From positions 62,001-126,000 of the forward strand of contig NZ_NESJ01000009.1 in the NCBI RefSeq assembly GCF_003063645.1: 64,000 nt of DNA. The letters run 5' to 3'. This document shows positions 10,589-56,966 of this stretch, one piece after another; position 1 is the first letter of the stretch; the number at the start of each line of letters is the position of its first letter. The notes beneath the pieces were generated by a model. That model saw only the letters and a program-made list of their open reading frames with translations. It did no database searches and was not told the origin of the DNA. This DNA is from Limnohabitans sp. 2KL-51. GTDB taxonomy: Bacteria; Pseudomonadota; Gammaproteobacteria; Burkholderiales; Burkholderiaceae_C. The translations under genes and the position numbers were made by a program.

Positions 10589-11988
10589 GTCGGCTCTCGC
10601 ATGGGGGGAACAGGGTTCAAACGCAATTCGGCAGCGCGGGCGTGGGCTTGCAGGCCTTCGCCATAGGCCAGCTCGGCGGCGATGCGGCCCAGAGGCTGGG
10701 CACCGGCTTCGCTCACCTCAATCAGGCTGCTGCGTTTTTGGAAGTCGTACACGCCCAAAGGCGAGGAAAAACGCGCCGTGCCGCTGGTGGGCAGCACATG
10801 GTTGGGGCCAGCGCAGTAGTCGCCCAGCGATTCGCTGGTGAACGCGCCCAAAAAGATAGCCCCTGCGTGGCGCAGCAAAGGCTCCCAGCGGTGCGGCTCG
10901 CTGCTCGACACCTCCAGGTGCTCGGGCGCGATGCGGTTGCTAATGGCGCAGGCTTCTTCCATGCTGCGCGTGAGGATCAGCGCACCACGGTCGTTCAGGC
11001 TCTTGGCGATGATCTCGCGGCGGGGCATGGTGGGCAGCAGGCGGTCAATGGCGGCTTGCACTTCGGAGATGTAGGCCGCATCGGGGCACAGCAAAATGCT
11101 TTGCGCCAACTCGTCGTGCTCGGCCTGGCTGAACAAATCCATCGCCACCCATTCGGCGGGCGTGCTGCCATCGGCCAAGACCAGAATTTCAGAGGGGCCC
11201 GCAATCATGTCGATGCCCACGGTGCCGAACACACGCTTTTTGGCGCTGGCCACATAGGCGTTGCCCGGGCCGGTGATCTTGTCGACCTTGGGGATGGTGG
11301 CCGTGCCGTAGGCCAAAGCCCCCACCGCTTGTGCACCGCCCACGGTGAAGGCACGCGTGACGCCCGCCACATAGGCGGCGGCCAACACGAGTTCATTGCG
11401 TTCGCCCAGGCTGGAAGCGGCCGCCTCTCCAGATCCTCCCGTGGCCACGCTGCCGCGCACGGGCGTGGGCACGACCATGATGATGTCTTGCACCCCGGCC
11501 ACATGGGCGGGAATGGCATTCATCAACACCGAAGAGGGGTAAGCGGCTTTGCCACCGGGCACATAAATGCCCACGCGGTCGAGCGGTGTGACTTTTTGGC
11601 CGAGCAGCGTGCCGTCTTCGTCGCGGTAGCTCCAGCTCTCGCCAGAGGCTTTCTTTTGCGCTTCGTGGTACTTGCGCACCCGGCTTGCTGCGGCTTGCAG
11701 GGCTTCGCGTTGTGCGGCGGGCAGGCTGTCGAGTGCCGCTTTCAGTTCGGCCTGGGTGATCTCCAAAGCTTTCACATCGGGCGCTTGCAGGCCGTCAAAG
11801 CGCTGGGTGTATTCCAGCACGGCGTTATCGCCACGCTTTTGCACATCGGCCAGGATATCGGCCACGCGCTGCTCGATGGCGGCGTCGGTGTCGGCAGACC
11901 AATGCAGGCGGGCCGCAAAGGCCGCTTCAAAACCGGCATCGGCCGTGTTCAGTTGCAAGGGTTTGGCTTGCAGGCCCAACGAGTCCAT
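10585..11988 (-). CDS. hisD: Histidinol dehydrogenase (biosynthetic)
   Basis: [23 protein letters not shown] and [14 protein letters not shown]; within the his cluster. Confidence 0.97.
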
Positions 11989-45556: not shown

Positions 45557-46282
45557 TTAAACGCAGGATCTCTTGTCATTTATGCCATCTTTTTGGGACT
45601 GCCACCAAGCCACGCAGGCTGTAGCCAGTGCCGCAGTGCTGTCAACACACTGCGTGCGAAGCGGTGATTGGATCGCATCCAGCGCCAAAGGTGTTTCGGT
45701 GCAAGCCAGAATCACTGCGCTTACGCCCTGGTTCAGCAGTGATTCAACGGCTTTCTCAATGAGCTTTCCTGCGCTCAAAGCGTCGCCAGCCTTGACCCGC
45801 TCAATCCCAGGCAAAACCAAGGTGCTCATTGCGATCTCGTCTGGCAAAACGACGGTATAGCCCGCGCGGTGGAGTACTGGATCAAAAATTTGGGCCGCCA
45901 AAGTAGCGCGTGTGGCGATCACGCCAATTTTTGAACCCACATCAGCCAGCAGCGTGAGCTGATTGACACTCGCATCCACAATGCTTAGAAAAGGAACTGC
46001 ACATCCCTTCAGAAGATCAGGGTACCAAAAATGTGCGGTGTTGCATGGCATGGCCAAGGCCATGGCGCCAGCTGAAATCAGGCGGTCTCTCCCGGCCATC
46101 AATTCAGGCAGTGGCGAACGCCCCCCATTGAGAATTGCTGCTGGTCGCGGCGCAATACGAGGGTCGGACTGCATCAGCATCGGTACATGATCGGCATCTT
46201 CTTTGGCATGGGTTGCCGAGATCACTTTGCTGAAGAAATCAAGGGTTGCCAAGGGTCCCATCCCGCCTAAAACTCCGATCAT
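45557..46282 (-). CDS. Aspartate/glutamate-type amino-acid racemase
   Basis: MIGVLGGMGPLATLDFFSKVI; paired catalytic cysteines in MPCNTAHFW and LACTETPLAL. Confidence 0.9.
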   Translation of the reverse strand: MIGVLGGMGPLATLDFFSKVISATHAKEDADHVPMLMQSDPRIAPRPAAILNGGRSPLPELMAGRDRLISAGAMALAMPCNTAHFWYPDLLKGCAVPFLSIVDASVNQLTLLADVGSKIGVIATRATLAAQIFDPVLHRAGYTVVLPDEIAMSTLVLPGIERVKAGDALSAGKLIEKAVESLLNQGVSAVILACTETPLALDAIQSPLRTQCVDSTAALATACVAWWQSQKDGINDKRSCV

Positions 46283-46498
46283 GATCGGTGACTCCTTCAG
46301 ATATTGCTCATTGAACGGCGATCAAATAGCCACCCGCCACAAAAGCCAAGCCCAGCTTGACTCAAAAAAATCATGGCCACTGGCCTCCAGACGAACTGAG
46401 TGACCTCTTTAAGGAAGGTCTTCAAACCCACGCCGGTGCACGTGATTGTGTGAACTCAAAAGCAAAACCCGGCGCAAGCGTCGTCATCAAGGCAGGAT

Positions 46499-47509
46499 TC
46501 AAAGAGGTTTCAAACCACTAAAAGCATCCATGTAACCGTAAAGCGCTACCGAGCCACCGGTGTGAAGGAAAACGACGTTTTCTCCCTTCTTGAAATGCCC
46601 CTTGCGGCACAGATCAATCAGGCCGGCCATGCCCTTACCCGAATACACGGGGTCAAGCAAAATCCCTTCGAGTCTGGCCATCATCGTCACGGCTTCAACC
46701 ATGCCGTCTGTCGGGACGCCGTAACCACCACCTACATAGTCGCAGTTGGCTTTCACGCTGTCGCGACTGATGCTGCCGGGGACGCCCAAGAGTTCTGCTG
46801 TTTTGACGGCCAAGTTGTAGACATTGTTTTCCTGAGCCTCTTTAGGAGCACGTACGCCAATGCCGAGTACCGGAATTTGACTGCGTGTGCCTTCAAATCC
46901 TGCCACCAAACCAGCCTGTGTGCCGGCACTTCCGGTGGCGTGCACCACGCTACTGACATTCAGGCCCAGGGTATTGAACTGGTCGACCAACTCCAATGCG
47001 CAAACCACATAACCCAGTGCGCCAATGGGGTTGGAGCCGCCGCCAGGAATGATGTAAGGCTTCTGGCCTTTGGCAACCAGCTCTTCGGCCAGCTTGGCCA
47101 TAGCGGAATTCATGTCTGTTCCACCTGGCACTTCTTGCACGTTGGCACCATATAAAAGATCGAGGAATACGTTTCCAGATTTTTTGTAATTTTCTACTTT
47201 AGAACCGGTGCGATCTTCGAGCAGTATTTCGCACTTCATGCCCATCTTTGCTGCGATGGCCACGGTTTGGCGTGCGTGATTCGATTGGGTGGCACCCTGC
47301 GTGATGATGGTGTCTGCACCATGCTTGACAGCATCGGCCATCAAAAACTCAAGCTTGCGCGTTTTGTTACCACCAGAGCCCAGGCCAGTGCAGTCGTCTC
47401 GCTTGATGTAAAGATTGGGGCCACCCAATGCCTCCGACATGCGGGGCATGAATTCAAGCGGTGTAGGACCATGGGTGATGCGTACTCGGGGGAAGTTGGT
47501 GATTTTCAT
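46499..47509 (-). CDS. PLP-dependent L-cysteate sulfo-lyase / D-cysteine desulfhydrase family (CuyA/DcyD-like)
   Basis: [76 protein letters not shown]. Confidence 0.9.
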
Positions 47510-47555
47510 TTGTGCTTTCTTTTGTGGTTTGAAATGGATGCAGTACCCGTGGTCT

Positions 47556-48800
47556 CTAAGTGGCTGCGGCTATCTGGGTAGAAACCAAGACAATTTTCCC
47601 GATCAAAACGCAGTCCTCGTCAGTCAGCGACAAGGGCGTTCGTAAATCCAGCAATTGATCCAAAACGGCCTTTGAATTTGGAATTTCTGGCTTGCAGGCA
47701 AGGTAATGCCAGTGCTCGTAATTGCTGGTAAATGCGACTGGTGCAGGGGTGCCAAACCACTTGATGTAGAGCCCACGCAAACCGCATTGCTTGAGAAATT
47801 GCTCAATTTGATGTGGCTTTAGATTCAGAGTGAATTGAATCGAGCTGGCAATGAAATCTTCCCTTGCATCCCGCGCTGGGATCGACACGTGTTGAGCTTT
47901 TGTCAGCTCGCGTTCAAGTGTGGCGTAAATGTGATTCCAACGGCGGCCACGATCAGCCAACTGCCCAATTTGGGGACGCAGCAACGCAGCGGCCAAGTTT
48001 GACATGCGCATACTGAAATTGGGTGTGACGTACTTCCAGCGCTCAAACACCTCTGCATTGGGCTTGAGGACATGCTGGTCGTACATCATGTAACAACCCG
48101 ACATCAATATGGCTTGGGCAGCGACATCATCGTCATCGGTCACCAGCAAACCACCTTCACCCGAGTTGATGTGTTTGTAGGTTTGCGCGCTGTAGCAACC
48201 CACATTGCCCCAAGTACCCGTGTGTTTCCCATCCCATTTTGCACCCATGGTGTGAGCGCAGTCTTCCACTATCGCGATGCCGTTTTGATCGCAAATGACT
48301 TTGATGGCTTGCAAGTCAGCAATGTGGCCGCGCATGTGCGAGAGCAAAAAAACTTTGGCACCACTTGTCGAGGCCTTGCGCTCCAGGTCAGCCAAGTCAG
48401 TCATGTAGTTGTCGCTGGTTTCGACCAAAATCGCATCAGCGCCAGCATGGGCAATGGCCCCCGGTACAGGTGACAGTGTGAAGGTATTGGTTAACACCTT
48501 GTCGCCCGTTTTCACACCCAGCGCCTTGAGCGCAATGAACATTGCCGCACCGCAGGAACTGACTGCCACACAGTATTTGCTGCCCACATACTCAGCGTAC
48601 TCTTGCTCGAGCAGCGAAGGCTCGGGGTAACCCTTGCCTTGCTCACCATAACGGTGCAAGCGTCCCGAGCGCATCAGGGCAATGGCGCGCTCGATGGCTT
48701 CTTCAGGTATCGGCTCGCTGGTGCTCAAGTCTTTGCCGAACCACAGGCCGTCAGGCTCAAGCAGCATGGCTGAAGAGGGTGTGGAAATCGTTGAGGACAT
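47556..48800 (-). CDS. DegT/DnrJ/EryC1/StrS family aminotransferase
   Basis: [76 protein letters not shown] lysine retained. Confidence 0.93.
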
Positions 48801-48807
48801 GGCTTGA

Positions 48808-50136
<1,329 letters not shown>

Positions 50137-50156
50137 TCAAAAAAGTTTGAATTGAA

Positions 50157-51017
50157 TCACCCACGCCCCTTCCAGGGCACAACGCGGCGCTCAACAAAAC
50201 GCACGAGGTGGTCAAAGGCGTAAGCAATTGCAGCGATCACCACAATCCCCATGATGACAATCGGCGTCTGCAAAAATCGGGATGCTGACAACACCGTGTA
50301 CCCCAAACCAGAGGTGGCAGCAACCATTTCGGCGGCCACGAGTGTTGTCCAGCCAAAACCGATGCCAACACGCATCGCTGTAAAAATTTCTGGCATCGCA
50401 GACGGTAATACGACCAGGCGAATCACTTGCCAGCGGGTTGCACCAAATGAATAGGCGGCATGAATTTGTTCTATTGCGGCCGACTTGACACCAGCACGGG
50501 CACCCAAAGCCATAGGGGCGAGTACAGAAAGAAAAATCAGTAAAACCTTAGACAGCTCATCAATGCCAAACCAGATGATCATGAGCGGCAAGTAAGCCAA
50601 TGGTGGAATGGGTCGGTAGAACTCAATAGGAGGGTCAAAAATACCGCGTGCAATTGGGCTCATCCCCATCGCAATACCCAGTGGGATACCGACGATACAG
50701 GCCAACAAGAAGGCACTGAAAACCCTCAGTGTGCTGACCCAAGTGTGCTCCCAAAAGCTGGCCCCTGTAAATCCGTCTCTCAAGATGACCAGAAAAGCGT
50801 CAATGACGCCCATGGGTGATGGCAGAAAAAGTGGTTTGATGTAACCAGCGTAAGTCACTAACCACCATACAAAGATCAAGCCAGCAATCACTACAATGCT
50901 GATCTTGAGGCTTTCGCCTTGACCTGGTACACCATAAATTTCACCCGGCTTGGCGGGTTTGGCTTTCATCCAACTTGCCTTGATGCCTTTGCCAGTCGTT
51001 GAACGGTTGTCACTCAT
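50157..51017 (-). CDS. ABC transporter permease (TauC/SsuC-like)
   Basis: WEHTWVSTLRVFSAFLLACIVGIPLGIAMGMSPIARGIFDPPIEFYRPIPPLAYLPLMIIWFGIDELSKVLLI. Confidence 0.93.
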   Translation of the reverse strand: MSDNRSTTGKGIKASWMKAKPAKPGEIYGVPGQGESLKISIVVIAGLIFVWWLVTYAGYIKPLFLPSPMGVIDAFLVILRDGFTGASFWEHTWVSTLRVFSAFLLACIVGIPLGIAMGMSPIARGIFDPPIEFYRPIPPLAYLPLMIIWFGIDELSKVLLIFLSVLAPMALGARAGVKSAAIEQIHAAYSFGATRWQVIRLVVLPSAMPEIFTAMRVGIGFGWTTLVAAEMVAATSGLGYTVLSASRFLQTPIVIMGIVVIAAIAYAFDHLVRFVERRVVPWKGRG

Positions 51018-51804
51018 CGTCAGCTCCTGCCTCATCAGCAAAGATGATCTGTAATATTTCTTCTCTCAGTTCAATAAATTCAGAGGACGCTTTGATGGCT
51101 CTGGCATTGCCCGTTTCAAAATACCGTTGACTAAACGGCAAGTCAAAGACGTGTGATATTCGACCGGGACGAGGTGACATCACAATCAATTTTGTCCCCA
51201 TGAACAACGCTTCTTCAACGCTGTGGGTGATGAAAAAAACCATTTTTCCTGTGTCGCGCCAAACTTTCAAAATCAGCTCTTGCGCTCGCTCTCGGGTCAG
51301 CGCATCCAATGCACCCAATGGCTCGTCCATCAGCAAGATAGCCGGGTCACTGGTCAGTGCCCGAGCGATCCCGACGCGTTGCTGCATTCCTCCCGACAAC
51401 TCATACGTAGCCGATTGCTCAAATTGCTCTAGACCCAGTAGCTTGATGAACTCGCGCGCAATACCCTCTCGCTTGACCTTGCCATGGCCTTGAATTTTCA
51501 AGCCGAAAGCGACGTTGTCCAGCACATTCAGCCAGGGCAACAGGGCGTGTTTTTGAAACACCACAGAGCGATCAGCGCCTGGGCCCGTGACAACCTCACC
51601 GTTCAGAGATATCTCCCCTTCACTTGGGGCCATGAATCCTGCGATCAGATTCAACAGCGTTGATTTGCCACAGCCAGATGCACCCAATGCCACCACAAAA
51701 TCTTTTTCATGAATCTCGAGGTTGATGCTTTGGAGAGCATGAACGGGTGGTTTGCCAGGAACAGGGTAATAGACCGACGCGTTTTTAATGGCAAGTGCTG
51801 TCAT
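51010..51804 (-). CDS. ABC transporter ATP-binding protein (TauB/SsuB-like)
   Basis: LGASGCGKSTLLNLIAGF; LSGGMQQRVGIARALTSDPAILLMDEPLGALDALTRE. Confidence 0.95.
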   Translation of the reverse strand: MTALAIKNASVYYPVPGKPPVHALQSINLEIHEKDFVVALGASGCGKSTLLNLIAGFMAPSEGEISLNGEVVTGPGADRSVVFQKHALLPWLNVLDNVAFGLKIQGHGKVKREGIAREFIKLLGLEQFEQSATYELSGGMQQRVGIARALTSDPAILLMDEPLGALDALTRERAQELILKVWRDTGKMVFFITHSVEEALFMGTKLIVMSPRPGRISHVFDLPFSQRYFETGNARAIKASSEFIELREEILQIIFADEAGADDE

Positions 51805-51883
51805 GGAGGACCTCGAAAGGTTTGAGCCACGTGCTGAGCCAGCCTGAACAGGTCAGCGCAGCACGCGGTACGTGCAAAGCCAA

Positions 51884-52882
51884 TTACTTGCCAGCGGCGG
51901 CTTTGGCGAATTCGGGATTCACGAACTTGGTATAGCTGTCAGCGGCTGCGCTGATACGGCCCGCGCCCTTAAGGAAGTCGGCGGTGGATTTAATGGTCGT
52001 GGCTGCACCACCGCCCATCCAGTTTGCTGACATATTCAACTCGCCATCTGGGTAGATGGCACCTTCCAATGCCGACACGACGGCAGCGGGTGTTATGCCT
52101 ACATTGGTGGCGACCGCCTTGGTTTTAGGCGAATCCACTGTCCATGCAGCTCTGTTCTTGCTGTAGTCACCATTGATTTGGTTCATGGCCTTCAAAAAGT
52201 TCACCAAACCAGCACGGTTTGCCGCAGCAAATTTGTTGGTGGCAACCCATCCATTGAAAGTAGGGAAACCGGTTTTGGCAATGGCTCCTGCGGTCGTCAT
52301 GACCTTACCGTTTTCACGAATCTTGGCTTGGACCGGATACCAGACGAAAGCTGCATCCACCGCGTTTTGAGCCCAGGCGGCTGCGATTTCAGCGGGCGAC
52401 ATGCCGACGACCGTCACGTCTTTCTCTGTCAAGTTGTACATCTTCAATGCGCCCATCAGCGAGAAGTGCGCGGTGGATCCGATCGGCACAGCGATGCGCT
52501 TGCCTTTCAAATCTGCGGGCTTGTCAATACCTGCCCCATTTCGGGTCACCAAAGCCTCTGAACTATCAATGACCTTGCCGACAGAAATCATCTGATAGTC
52601 CAGACCCGAGCTCAGGCCTGCTGACAGGGGAGAAGAGCCGATCTCGGAGATCACAATGCCGCCAGAGGCCATGGCCGCGTTGACCTCAGCACCAGAAGCG
52701 AATTGACGCCATTCAATGGTCCAGCCAGTCGCTTTTTCAAGTGTTCCGTCTGCAACGATGGCTTTGTAGGGTGCCGGGTCACCAAAGTGGCCAATCACCA
52801 CCTTGGTTTGCGCTACGGCAAGTGACACGAGACCGAAAGTGAATGCTGAGCCGACTAGCAGTGTTTTGAGCAGATTTTTCAT
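51884..52882 (-). CDS. ABC transporter substrate-binding protein (TauA-like)
   Basis: Signal peptide; VVIGHFGDPAPYKAIVADGTLEKATGWTIEWRQFASGAEVNAAMASGGIVISEIGSSPLSAGLSSG. Confidence 0.92.
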   Translation of the reverse strand: MKNLLKTLLVGSAFTFGLVSLAVAQTKVVIGHFGDPAPYKAIVADGTLEKATGWTIEWRQFASGAEVNAAMASGGIVISEIGSSPLSAGLSSGLDYQMISVGKVIDSSEALVTRNGAGIDKPADLKGKRIAVPIGSTAHFSLMGALKMYNLTEKDVTVVGMSPAEIAAAWAQNAVDAAFVWYPVQAKIRENGKVMTTAGAIAKTGFPTFNGWVATNKFAAANRAGLVNFLKAMNQINGDYSKNRAAWTVDSPKTKAVATNVGITPAAVVSALEGAIYPDGELNMSANWMGGGAATTIKSTADFLKGAGRISAAADSYTKFVNPEFAKAAAGK

Positions 52883-52991
52883 GGTGTTTTTTCAGTAAAA
52901 AAGTTGCGGGAATATGATGGACTGAAATCGGTTCACATGCTTTCATCACACATGACCTCATGGAATGTTAGATACAGCTATTTTTAAAAAA

Positions 52992-53021
52992 TAGTGCCAG
53001 ATTAATTTTTGTTTAGTGCCA
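52992..53021. promoter_or_regulatory. Candidate MocR operator: direct repeat TAGTGCCA-N14-TAGTGCCA
   Basis: Exact 8-bp direct repeats at 52992 and 53014, 22-bp periodicity, in the divergent intergenic region. Confidence 0.55.
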
Positions 53022-53159
53022 AAATTGAATAAGTTGAAATTTGCTTGGCTTCACAAGCAAAACTTCGGAGCAACCCTCAAACTATTCCGGGTTAACCCTT
53101 GATTGATGCCAACAGATCAACCAGGTGTAGCCATGATGACGTTTTAATTGGAAAAAAGC

Positions 53160-54662
53160 ATGCGGCAAAAGCAGGAAATCACTGATATTTGGGCCAAACT
53201 TTTTCCAAAATTTTCTGGCAACAGTGCCACGCTTCAAGGTCGAGTGCGAGAGATGATGGTGCACTCCATTTTGATGGGCCTGATTCCGCCTGGCGCAAAA
53301 GTCCCAACCAGTCGCGCGCTGTCGAACGCATTAGGCTTGTCTCGAAACACGGTTTCACTGGCTTTGCAAGTACTCGTTGACAAGGGTTTTTTGATTGCCA
53401 GTCCTCGAAGCGGGCTGATCGTCAATGGCGATATTTTGCTTGGCCAGGTAGACCGATCGGCCCCTTCAGAACCTATGACCTCAGGCTTGAAGTGGTCCGA
53501 AAGGTTTAAATCTCACCTCATCCATCAACGCAACATCATCAAACCTGCCAACTGGCAGGATTACGCTTACCCTTTTGTTTATGGTCAATTTGACGCAAGT
53601 TTGGTGCCGCTCAAAGACTGGCGAGCCTGCTCTCACCAAGCCTTGTTTGTACCGGCTGTCAAGAAATGGGCTCAGAACCATATTGACCGCGACTCTGAGG
53701 CCTTGGTAGAGCAAATTCAACACCGATTGTTGCCTGCACGCGGCATCATGGCCAGGCGCGATGAAATTCTCGTGACCGCGGGCTCGCAAATGGCCTGCTA
53801 CCTGTTGGCCAATGTGTTGGTGGATAAACAAACCGTTGTTGGCATTGAAGACCCTGGGTACCCGGATGCGCGCAATAACTTTTTGCTGCGCAGCGACCAT
53901 GTCAAAGCACTGCCCATAGATGCCGATGGACTGACTGCCTCTCGTGCCATGGGTCAATGTGCCTATGTTTTCGTGACTCCCAGTCATCAGTGCCCCACCA
54001 CCGTCACCATGCCGTTAAGTCGCAGGCAGGAGATTCTGGAGTTGGCCAAAAAACGTGATGTTGTTTTGTTTGAAGACGACCATGAGAGTGAGTTGAACTT
54101 TTCTGGTCGCCCTCTGCCTGCGCTGAAAAGTCTGGATACGGATGGTCGGGTTATTTACCTTGGCAGCCTGTCCAAAACACTGGTACACGGCTTGAGAATT
54201 GGCTACATCGTTGCACCTGCTGAATTGATACGCGAGCTTCGGGCCTTGCGTCGATTGATCATGCGCCATGAACCCACCAACAACTCGCACACAGCCAGCT
54301 TGTTTATTGCACAAGGGCACCATGATGCATTCATGCGCAAGTTGAACGTGACCTACAAAGAGCGACGCGAAATTTTGACCAATGCATTTTCAAAATATTT
54401 GCCGCAATTTGAAATTGCGCCCTCACTGGGCGGTTCTGGCGCCTGGATCAAAGGGCCTGAAAGTTTTAACAGCCAGTCTTTGGCAGAGCTATGCGCCGCT
54501 CGAGGCGTCCTGATAGAGCCGGGTGATATCTTCTTCAATAAATCTTCGAATAAGAACCAAGCTTACTTTCGTTTAGGCTATTCAGCCATCCATGGCTCAT
54601 TGATCGATGCTGGTGTACGTGAAATTCAACAAGCTTACAAAGACATCAATATTCATTCATGA
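53160..54662 (+). CDS. MocR family regulator (GntR wHTH fused to class I aminotransferase; TauR-like)
   Basis: GLIPPGAKVPTSRALSNALGLSRNTVSLALQVLVDKGF, then VGIEDPGYPDARNNFLLR and VIYLGSLSKTLVHGLRIGYIVAP. Confidence 0.95.
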   Translation: MRQKQEITDIWAKLFPKFSGNSATLQGRVREMMVHSILMGLIPPGAKVPTSRALSNALGLSRNTVSLALQVLVDKGFLIASPRSGLIVNGDILLGQVDRSAPSEPMTSGLKWSERFKSHLIHQRNIIKPANWQDYAYPFVYGQFDASLVPLKDWRACSHQALFVPAVKKWAQNHIDRDSEALVEQIQHRLLPARGIMARRDEILVTAGSQMACYLLANVLVDKQTVVGIEDPGYPDARNNFLLRSDHVKALPIDADGLTASRAMGQCAYVFVTPSHQCPTTVTMPLSRRQEILELAKKRDVVLFEDDHESELNFSGRPLPALKSLDTDGRVIYLGSLSKTLVHGLRIGYIVAPAELIRELRALRRLIMRHEPTNNSHTASLFIAQGHHDAFMRKLNVTYKERREILTNAFSKYLPQFEIAPSLGGSGAWIKGPESFNSQSLAELCAARGVLIEPGDIFFNKSSNKNQAYFRLGYSAIHGSLIDAGVREIQQAYKDINIHS

Positions 54663-54793: not shown

Positions 54794-55767
54794 TCACTGT
54801 GCTTCGATCCCCAATTCCTTGATGCGCCGGGTAATGACATCAAATTCAAGCTTGTAGTTGGCTTGTGCCTGTTCGGGTGTTGTCACCATCATTTCAAACC
54901 CCCGCTCCACCAGCTGATTTCTAACCTCTGGTGAGTTGGCAATGGCACGCATTTCCTGTCCAAGCCTCTGAACAATGGCGTTTGGCGTTTTGGCTGGTGC
55001 CAGTATGGCCATCCAAACACTGTTGAGGTAAAGGGGATCGGTCAACCCCAATTCTTTGAGCGTGGGCACCTGGGGCAAGGCTTGCGAGCGGTCTGCGCCC
55101 ATCATGGCAATGGGCACGATCTTGCCTGTGGCCACGTGCTGTCGGGCGGTGGCTACAGAAGACAACCCCAGGGTGAGGGTTTGGTTCAGCAAGTCAGTCA
55201 CCACCGGGCCTTCGCCACGCTGGGGGACGTGCACCATTTCAGCCTTGAGGTCGCGGTTGAGCGACTCACCGGCCAAATGTCCCAACCCCCCGACACCCCA
55301 TGAGCCGTAGCTGTATTTGGCGTTGGGCACGGCCATGCGCTTGAGATCTGCAAAATTCTTGATGCCACTGAGGTGCTGCTAGAAATCAGTGCAGGACTGC
55401 GCAGTATTTGGCCAACAAAGACCAGGTCTTTTTGAGGATCAAAAGGCAAACTTTTGAACAAGGCCACATTGTTGATCAGTGGATCATTGATCGACAGAAG
55501 CAAGGTGTGCCCATCCCCCTCAGCCTTGGCGACTTCTGCGACACCGATGTTGCCAGCTGCGCCCGACTTATTGTCCACCACCACGGGCTGCCCCAGAGAT
55601 TTGGAGAGTTTTTCACCAAAGAGTCTGGCCACGAAATCTGTGGCGCCTCCTGCTGGGTAAGGTACAACGAGGCGGATGGTTTTGGTCGGGTAAGTTTGTG
55701 CATGCCCTGTCAGGCAAAGCAAAGTCGCAAACAGTCCCAAAGCGAGGGGCTTGATCAATTGTTTCAT
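54794..55767 (-). pseudogene. Bug/TctC-family substrate-binding protein interrupted by a frameshift
   Basis: N-terminal half in ORF 55198-55767 (YPTKTIRLVVPYPAGGATDFVARLFGEKLSKSLGQPVVVDNKSGAAGNIG); C-terminal half in another frame, ORF 54794-55336. The other frame also encodes GIKNFADLKRMAVPNAKYSYGSWG near 55372. Confidence 0.85.
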
Positions 55768-55800: not shown

Positions 55801-56844
55801 TCATGCCGCGAGGTCTTCGGCGCTTTTTTCGTCAGAAAGTGTCTTTCTGAACTGCATCAACGCGGCATCGAAATGCAAAGGCAGCATGGGGTTGAATGCA
55901 GGTGTTTGCATGTTCAGGTGCTGCGCGGTGATCATGTTCCGGTCTTCTTCAAAGGCCTGGACCAAGGAGTTGTAGATGCTTTGTGTAACCGTTTCATCGC
56001 CCAGATCGCTTTGGTGGGACTGCTGAAAGAAGTAGTGGGTACTGTTTTCGGTTTCAGGGGTCAGTGTCTGGCAGCTGTGAAGTTGGACAGCTTGACTCAT
56101 GTCACCAGGTGCGGTGCCTACGGGCTTGCCACCCGAGTGCATCAACAAGGTTGCAGGCAGTAAAAATTCATAATCGAACCAACGGTCGAGATGGGTTGTA
56201 AAGGTCCTGAAGCGTTGGTAAAAAGGCGGTGACGGCACGTCAGGAATGTGCCGAATGACGCGAATTCCACGCTGCCCAGGCTGGGTGACCTTCTCGATTG
56301 TCGGCCTGGCTTGGGCAATGGCCGTTGAACCACCTAGAGTTTTTTCATGCACATAACTCAGGTGAGAAAAATCCAGCAGGTTGTCACAGATAAGAAGGTA
56401 AGGGGTGTCGTAGTGCAGGTAACCAGGGATGTTTTTCCAAGCCGGGTCACTGCACGAAAAATTGTCTGGCAAAAAGGCTTCATCTGCTTTGGTCGGGTCG
56501 CCCATCCAGACAAACACCCAGTTATTTTTGGTGACCACGGGGTAAGCGCGCACACAGGCTTTTGAGGGCACCTTGTCGGCTCCCGGGATTTCGGTGCAAT
56601 GCCCTTGGGCATTGAACTTGAGGCCGTGATAACCACAGCGGATGCTGTCACCTTCGCGGCGACCGGCTGACAGGGGTGCGTGTCGATGGCAGCATCTGTT
56701 TTCAAGGGCGGCCAATTTGCCGTCTTGCTTGCGATACACCACGACGGGCTCATTAAGAACCTTTCGCTGGAATAACTCTGTTGATTCAGCCGATGGTATT
56801 TCATGCTCCCAAGCAATCACATACCAGCAATTTTTAATCCACAT
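55801..56844 (-). CDS. Rieske 2Fe-2S aromatic ring-hydroxylating oxygenase, alpha subunit
   Basis: Rieske CCHRHAPLSAGRREGDSIRCGYHGLKFNAQGHCTEIPG and mononuclear-Fe motif DFSHLSYVH. Alternative start at 56883. Confidence 0.93.
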   Translation of the reverse strand: MWIKNCWYVIAWEHEIPSAESTELFQRKVLNEPVVVYRKQDGKLAALENRCCHRHAPLSAGRREGDSIRCGYHGLKFNAQGHCTEIPGADKVPSKACVRAYPVVTKNNWVFVWMGDPTKADEAFLPDNFSCSDPAWKNIPGYLHYDTPYLLICDNLLDFSHLSYVHEKTLGGSTAIAQARPTIEKVTQPGQRGIRVIRHIPDVPSPPFYQRFRTFTTHLDRWFDYEFLLPATLLMHSGGKPVGTAPGDMSQAVQLHSCQTLTPETENSTHYFFQQSHQSDLGDETVTQSIYNSLVQAFEEDRNMITAQHLNMQTPAFNPMLPLHFDAALMQFRKTLSDEKSAEDLAA

Positions 56845-56966
56845 GCATGAACCTTGTTGTTGCCGTTTGACCCACGTCATCAATCAATGTACGAGCATGA
56901 GAAAAAGCTGTCTGTCCCCTTCGAAAGGGACAACGCTAGGATCTTGGACGGCTTTTGCGAAGCTGT

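Follow-up and report, generated by a model that had tools for sequence, protein, structure and literature searches.

The window analysed here, 64,000 nucleotides of a contig from Limnohabitans sp. 2KL-51, holds between positions 45557 and 54662 a set of seven minus-strand genes in an operon-like layout and a divergent MocR-type regulator, which very probably encode a C3 aminosulfonate pathway ending in the desulfonation of cysteate. The compound from which this pathway starts is, with moderate probability, cysteinolate (2-amino-3-hydroxypropane-1-sulfonate), so that the whole set of MocR, TauABC, HpsN, CuyB, CuyA, and DegT proteins would provide for the regulated uptake and complete desulfonation of this compound. 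TauABC-like proteins would import cysteinolate, and an HpsN-like zinc enzyme would convert it into L-cysteate by an NAD-dependent four-electron oxidation of its CH2OH group to the carboxylate, as histidinol dehydrogenase does on histidinol. L-cysteate would then be turned into D-cysteate by CuyB and cleaved by CuyA to pyruvate, ammonia, and sulfite. A DegT-type aminotransferase would interconvert cysteinolate and 3-hydroxy-2-oxopropanesulfonate, opening the pathway to the keto compound or to the opposite enantiomer. A cysteinolate- or cysteate-like substrate had already been proposed in the initial annotation of this DNA and is still the best reading after the analysis, its identity being deduced from sequence.

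All eight genes are complete open reading frames (ORFs) at the following spans and in the order given in that annotation, and NCBIfam and Pfam agree with its family for every gene:

45557-46282, minus strand: cuyB, cysteate racemase by curated model (NF052483 above cut-off)
46499-47509, minus strand: cuyA, D-cysteate sulfo-lyase by curated model (NF052482 above cut-off)
47556-48800, minus strand: DegT/ArnB-type aminotransferase, putative cysteinolate aminotransferase (PF01041, 196 bits)
48808-50127, minus strand: HpsN-like zinc/NAD dehydrogenase, putative cysteinolate (amino-alcohol) dehydrogenase (phmmer, identity, residues)
50157-51041, minus strand: TauC-like permease (NF007545, 295.7 bits, below the cut-off of 342)
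51010-51804, minus strand: TauB-like ATPase (NF008421, 326.5 bits, below the cut-off of 357)
51884-52882, minus strand: TauA-like substrate-binding protein (TIGR01729, 278 bits, below the cut-off of 304)
52988-53022, minus strand: candidate MocR operator, direct repeat TTGGCACTA / CTGGCACTA (conservation; binding predicted)
53148-54662, plus strand: divergent MocR-type regulator (Pfam GntR and Aminotran_1_2)

The Cysteate End of the Pathway

The proteins of the window were assigned to families with NCBIfam and Pfam profiles and their curated cut-offs, and it is by such models that the last two steps are assigned to CuyA (561 bits, cut-off 450) and CuyB (242 bits, cut-off 190). CuyB also holds both cysteines expected of the racemase fold, Cys80 (MPCNT) and Cys194 (ACTET). 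Other identities for CuyA, as a D-cysteine desulfhydrase or a 1-aminocyclopropane-1-carboxylate deaminase, were discarded, the models for both remaining below their cut-offs. The catabolism of a C3 sulfonate, with a CuyA/DcyD-like lyase and an Asp/Glu-type racemase, had been anticipated by the initial annotation and is borne out by the analysis. The direction then given to the racemase has to be reversed: it had been thought to supply the L form to the lyase, whereas CuyA prefers D-cysteate, as the name of NF052482 also says, and CuyB makes the D from the L form (PMC11382572). Both enzymes and the terminal steps are shared with bacterial cysteate dissimilation by CuyB and CuyA, to which the window operon adds upstream the HpsN-like dehydrogenase and DegT, implying a precursor of cysteate.

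The HpsN-Like Dehydrogenase

The window dehydrogenase matches PDB 8v35 with a phmmer E value of 3e-177, and its match to the sulfopropanediol 3-dehydrogenase HpsN from Cupriavidus pinatubonensis, with which it shares 61.5% identity, reaches 593 bits, far above that to any HisD (227 bits). The GRYAH motif with His126, the catalytic Glu318/His319, the zinc ligand Asp352, and the sulfonate-binding Lys353 (HpsN numbering; His127, Glu319, His320, Asp353, and Lys354 in the window protein, which is numbered one higher) are all kept, and Ser226 is replaced by Thr. The protein also scores above the cut-off of the HisD model TIGR00069, and fold, zinc, and four-electron chemistry are common to HisD and HpsN. 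However, a separate HisD-like gene of the window (10603-11886), 34% identical to it, lacks the His126/Lys353 pair, with Tyr at both positions; the sulfonate-binding residues and this second HisD-like copy rule out that the operon enzyme is a true HisD. The earlier description as a histidinol dehydrogenase paralog therefore holds as far as the HpsN likeness goes, but identity and residues place the protein in the HpsN lineage rather than among loose paralogs of HisD. These features strongly indicate a C3 sulfonate alcohol as the substrate, and the alcohol is predicted to be cysteinolate. In the active site of HpsN from C. pinatubonensis, L-cysteate is held in a manner very similar to the enzyme's own product, R-sulfolactate (PMC11382572).

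The HpsN orthologue and its catalytic residues are shared with the operon hpsR-N-O-U-P-suyAB of C. pinatubonensis (L101) for 2,3-dihydroxypropane-1-sulfonate (DHPS). In contrast, the window operon holds no HpsO, HpsP, HpsU, or SuyAB, it is associated with a MocR instead of a LacI regulator, and it includes a TauABC-like importer. Both HpsN proteins also differ at position 321, Gln in the window protein and Glu in that of C. pinatubonensis. This position, two residues past the catalytic His319, was the column that best separated genomic contexts when 79 proteins (the HpsN set plus outgroups) were aligned and their columns compared by the presence of HpsO/HpsP. Glu or Thr is found there in 15 of the 16 HpsN proteins with HpsO/HpsP, and Gln or His in all 59 without them, a separation that holds even inside one alphaproteobacterial clade. 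The window protein, where this residue is Gln322, is of the type without HpsO/HpsP, and its substrate is therefore probably other than DHPS.

The DegT Aminotransferase and Its Partners

DegT matches PF01041, and its Lys209, the expected pyridoxal 5'-phosphate (PLP) lysine, and Asp180 are invariant across the family; its assignment as a cysteinolate aminotransferase is drawn from the company that the gene keeps. DegT served as the marker for loci collected from plasmid records, genomes of the order, and a one-genome-per-species scan, the latter covering the best 80 of at least 586 matches and thus sampling the closest relatives. One duplicate and one outgroup were set aside, and the remaining 92 loci span Alpha-, Beta-, and Gammaproteobacteria, Desulfobacterota (sulfate reducers), and SAR324. 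The initial annotation knew of no precedent for this combination of genes; it turns out to be widespread. Within the order of the window's organism the distribution is patchy, since only four of 300 sampled genomes, including its own, have a DegT match with an E value under 1e-60.

In 70 of the 92 loci HpsN and DegT share a strand, and in 47 HpsN is within 150 nt. Where 3 kb or more could be read in both directions (64 loci), HpsN is no more than 3 kb away in 46. The partners of the pair are interchangeable, the window operon being of the CuyA/CuyB type. Among these 70 HpsN-DegT loci, 30 hold both CuyA and CuyB, four CuyA alone, and one CuyB alone. Another six, three of which are near-copies, hold a PLP amino-acid decarboxylase (PF00282), and none of these six holds CuyA. 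This mutual exclusion is expected if cysteate is a shared intermediate, and cysteate is plausibly the one compound that CuyA/CuyB and the decarboxylase could have in common. Naming the latter a cysteate decarboxylase was rejected, as its solved relatives are mixed and no NCBIfam cut-off was reached.

A further nine of the 70 loci hold HpsO and HpsP. There, deaminated cysteinolate would join the DHPS route and no cysteate would be needed, which makes a role of DegT solely as a sulfopyruvate aminotransferase unlikely. HpsO and HpsP have been regarded as 2-dehydrogenases of DHPS, so that interconversion of cysteinolate and the corresponding 2-keto compound suits the settings with CuyA/CuyB as well as those with HpsO/HpsP; one study reports oxidation at C3 instead (PMC11131964). 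L104, from Ruegeria sp. SCSIO 43209, holds CuyA, CuyB, and HpsN, with DegT and HpsO/HpsP absent from the stretch read, from which it follows that what HpsN produces can arrive at CuyB even when neither an aminotransferase nor a sulfolactate dehydrogenase is encoded locally.

Several loci hold N-demethylation genes near HpsN and/or DegT (L011, L013, L014, L041, L046, L051, L079, and L080). Their products include FAD/GcvT proteins resembling dimethylglycine dehydrogenase, which share 58-64% identity with the copy in L014. MttB-like proteins are encoded in L014, L041, L051, and L079, and L013 has FolD and PurU alongside a Rieske system of the GbcA/GbcB-like kind. Such neighbours suggest that some lineages use N-methylated cysteinolate as a substrate. 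The same reading was dropped for the Desulfobacterales loci L045 and L053, whose neighbours do not bear it out, save for one MtaA/CmuA-like protein. In seven marine roseobacter loci (L073, L077, L083, L090, L092, L095, and L097), DegT, approximately 60% identical to that of Ancylobacter, occurs without HpsN, and in L073, L077, and L095 it adjoins glmU/glmS-like genes; these DegT proteins might serve the synthesis of cysteinolate for the roseobacter aminolipid SAL. The record of L033 is titled as a Klebsiella pneumoniae metagenome-assembled genome, yet its HpsN groups with Rubrivivax, so it is probably a mislabelled or contaminated bin.

Alternative Substrates and Routes

The main rival to cysteinolate, weakened by the analysis and now unlikely, is DHPS degraded through the CuyA branch, where HpsN would form sulfolactate, an unlinked dehydrogenase would oxidise it to sulfopyruvate, and DegT, as a sulfopyruvate aminotransferase, would yield L-cysteate for CuyB and CuyA. 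HpsN is the DHPS enzyme family, the genome holds four Ldh_2 proteins without an assigned role, and the branch has been described for Ruegeria pomeroyi, the gene of its sulfopyruvate aminotransferase being unknown (PMC11382572). R. pomeroyi and Roseovarius nubinhibens combine HpsN and CuyA in one organism, as the window's genome does, but their branch uses HpsO, HpsP, and SlcD (PMC11382572), none of which is in the window operon, and the window HpsN bears the signature of proteins without HpsO/HpsP. Moreover, DegT is also found within HpsN/HpsO/HpsP operons, one of them with SuyAB (L058), where cysteate is not needed, and L104 shows HpsN, CuyA, and CuyB together without DegT. Candidate sulfolactate dehydrogenases of the Ldh_2 and alpha-hydroxyacid-oxidase types are absent from the DegT loci, save for distant Ldh_2 relatives in the sugar-acid cluster of the window and in L030, L016, and L021. 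A sulfolactate dehydrogenase is likewise absent from the window operon, as queried with these two types (SlcD was not searched genome-wide).

The rest of the genome leaves the known DHPS routes without parts. None of its four Ldh_2 proteins exceeds the cut-off of the L-sulfolactate dehydrogenase model NF040650 (best genome match 212 of 500 bits), no alpha subunit of sulfopyruvate decarboxylase was found, and no HpsO orthologue was found, the best match being at 43%. Contig C14 holds candidates for a sulfolactate route (a SuyB-like protein at 40%, an Ldh_2, and a D-2-hydroxyacid dehydrogenase), which reach no curated model. The same contig carries the second sulfonate locus of the genome (L136; 8000-24000), with xsc (1048 bits, cut-off 676) beside a pta-like phosphate acetyltransferase gene, an ORF resembling TauE/SafE by eye, and a molybdopterin/4Fe-4S/membrane trio, possibly a sulfite dehydrogenase, although no model assigned it.

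The same net reaction as that proposed here could proceed through keto compounds, with DegT deaminating cysteinolate, HpsN oxidising the keto-alcohol to sulfopyruvate, and DegT re-aminating the latter to L-cysteate, sulfopyruvate thereby acting as the amino acceptor. We consider this quite improbable. It explains the frequent pairing of DegT and HpsN, and the need for a racemase whichever enantiomer is supplied; L104, however, has no DegT, and no account of HpsN acting on a ketone is known to us. In the structure of HpsN with sulfolactate, furthermore, the zinc is ligated by the C2 hydroxyl (PMC11382572). An operon for the uptake of cysteate or taurine, with HpsN and DegT acting on a secondary substrate, would agree with the TauABC-like transporter, the action of CuyA/CuyB on cysteate, and the Xsc of the genome. 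It is highly improbable, as the conserved core is the HpsN-DegT pair, which is found in the absence of CuyA/CuyB at roughly half of the loci.

Several observations weigh against the cysteinolate pathway. The transporter does not tell the ligand, since TauA (278/304), TauB (326.5/357), and TauC (295.7/342) all stay under the NCBIfam taurine cut-offs; the nearest solved structure to the TauA-like protein is a taurine-binding protein (6ssy). No lyase, decarboxylase, or HpsO/HpsP lies nearby in 20 of the 70 HpsN-DegT loci, and L058 has Gln at position 321 despite holding HpsO/HpsP. When the discriminating columns are removed before tree building, context and residue class each change three times. 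Only two independent contrasts are available, so that no significance can be claimed; as position 321 was also picked for giving the best separation among all columns, it is a lead that carries no p-value. The HpsN proteins of both contexts interleave in the tree instead of forming two clades, which led to dropping the argument for a clean subfamily and fits repeated substrate shifts or a broad substrate range.

Regulator, Candidate Operator, and Gene Order

The regulator combines GntR and aminotransferase I/II domains. Its best NCBIfam match, PdxR (317.9 bits), just misses the cut-off of 320, and no TauR model is among the NCBIfam matches listed for it. MocR regulators are known to bind direct repeats, and the direct repeat in the tauA-mocR intergenic region, with half-sites 22 bp apart, is therefore the likely operator. 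Both half-sites are found at the same spacing in the eight aligned intergenic regions, the rest of which varies.

Genes in the operon are separated by gaps of 7-216 nt, with a single overlap between TauB and TauC; the TTG start of TauC overlaps tauB, and a later start is possible. The same gene order with the divergent regulator occurs in seven other loci, all from Burkholderiales (L007, L008, L010, L021, L022, L023, and L031), whose MocR orthologues are 77-97% identical and divergent from tauA; CuyB was not seen in L007. The four-enzyme core is also found in other orders and classes, and this recurrence, together with the order kept in the seven loci, argues that the arrangement is not due to chance.

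The 216 nt between cuyA and cuyB (46283-46498) hold no gene in the window operon as read, and a gene for a YeiH-type sulfate exporter lies at this point in L010 and L031; it was possibly lost in the window lineage. G+C content is 51-55% at 46-58 kb, compared to 60-63% in most neighbouring bins, consistent with horizontal acquisition. A Rieske-type oxygenase (55801-56883, minus strand) belongs to the same low-G+C stretch and matches weakly the NCBIfam model of 4beta-methylsterol monooxygenase (97.5 bits, cut-off 600). A Bug/TctC-type binding protein, recognised by eye at 54794-55767 (minus strand), is split over two overlapping frames of 180 and 189 residues and looks frameshifted, either as a pseudogene or through a sequencing error.

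Significance

Cysteinolate is widespread in marine microalgae, where its cellular level can exceed that of dimethylsulfoniopropionate (DMSP) (PMC8703288), and aminolipids of roseobacters carry it as their head group (PMC11631085). In the open-access literature searched, no genes for its catabolism were found. The operon names concrete candidate genes in cultured strains, carriers in culture including Ancylobacter pratisalsi, Shinella sumterensis, and Pseudomonas sp. MPC6, and, in position 321, a testable residue; it also offers a possible function for many genes whose present annotation is histidinol dehydrogenase, D-cysteine desulfhydrase, or sugar aminotransferase. With core genes that recur in distant bacteria, a missing step of the sulfur cycle, the breakdown of algal cysteinolate, becomes testable.

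A wider proposal is held tentatively, with doubt slightly prevailing: HpsN with Gln or His at position 321 and DegT could form a general bacterial cysteinolate module, present in aerobes and sulfidogens. The module could end in CuyB/CuyA, in the decarboxylation of cysteate to taurine, or, through DegT and HpsO/HpsP, in the DHPS pathway, and in some lineages N-demethylation genes would stand in front of it for N-methylated cysteinolate. If this is true, both proteins would be the first enzymes for the turnover of cysteinolate, an abundant algal osmolyte.

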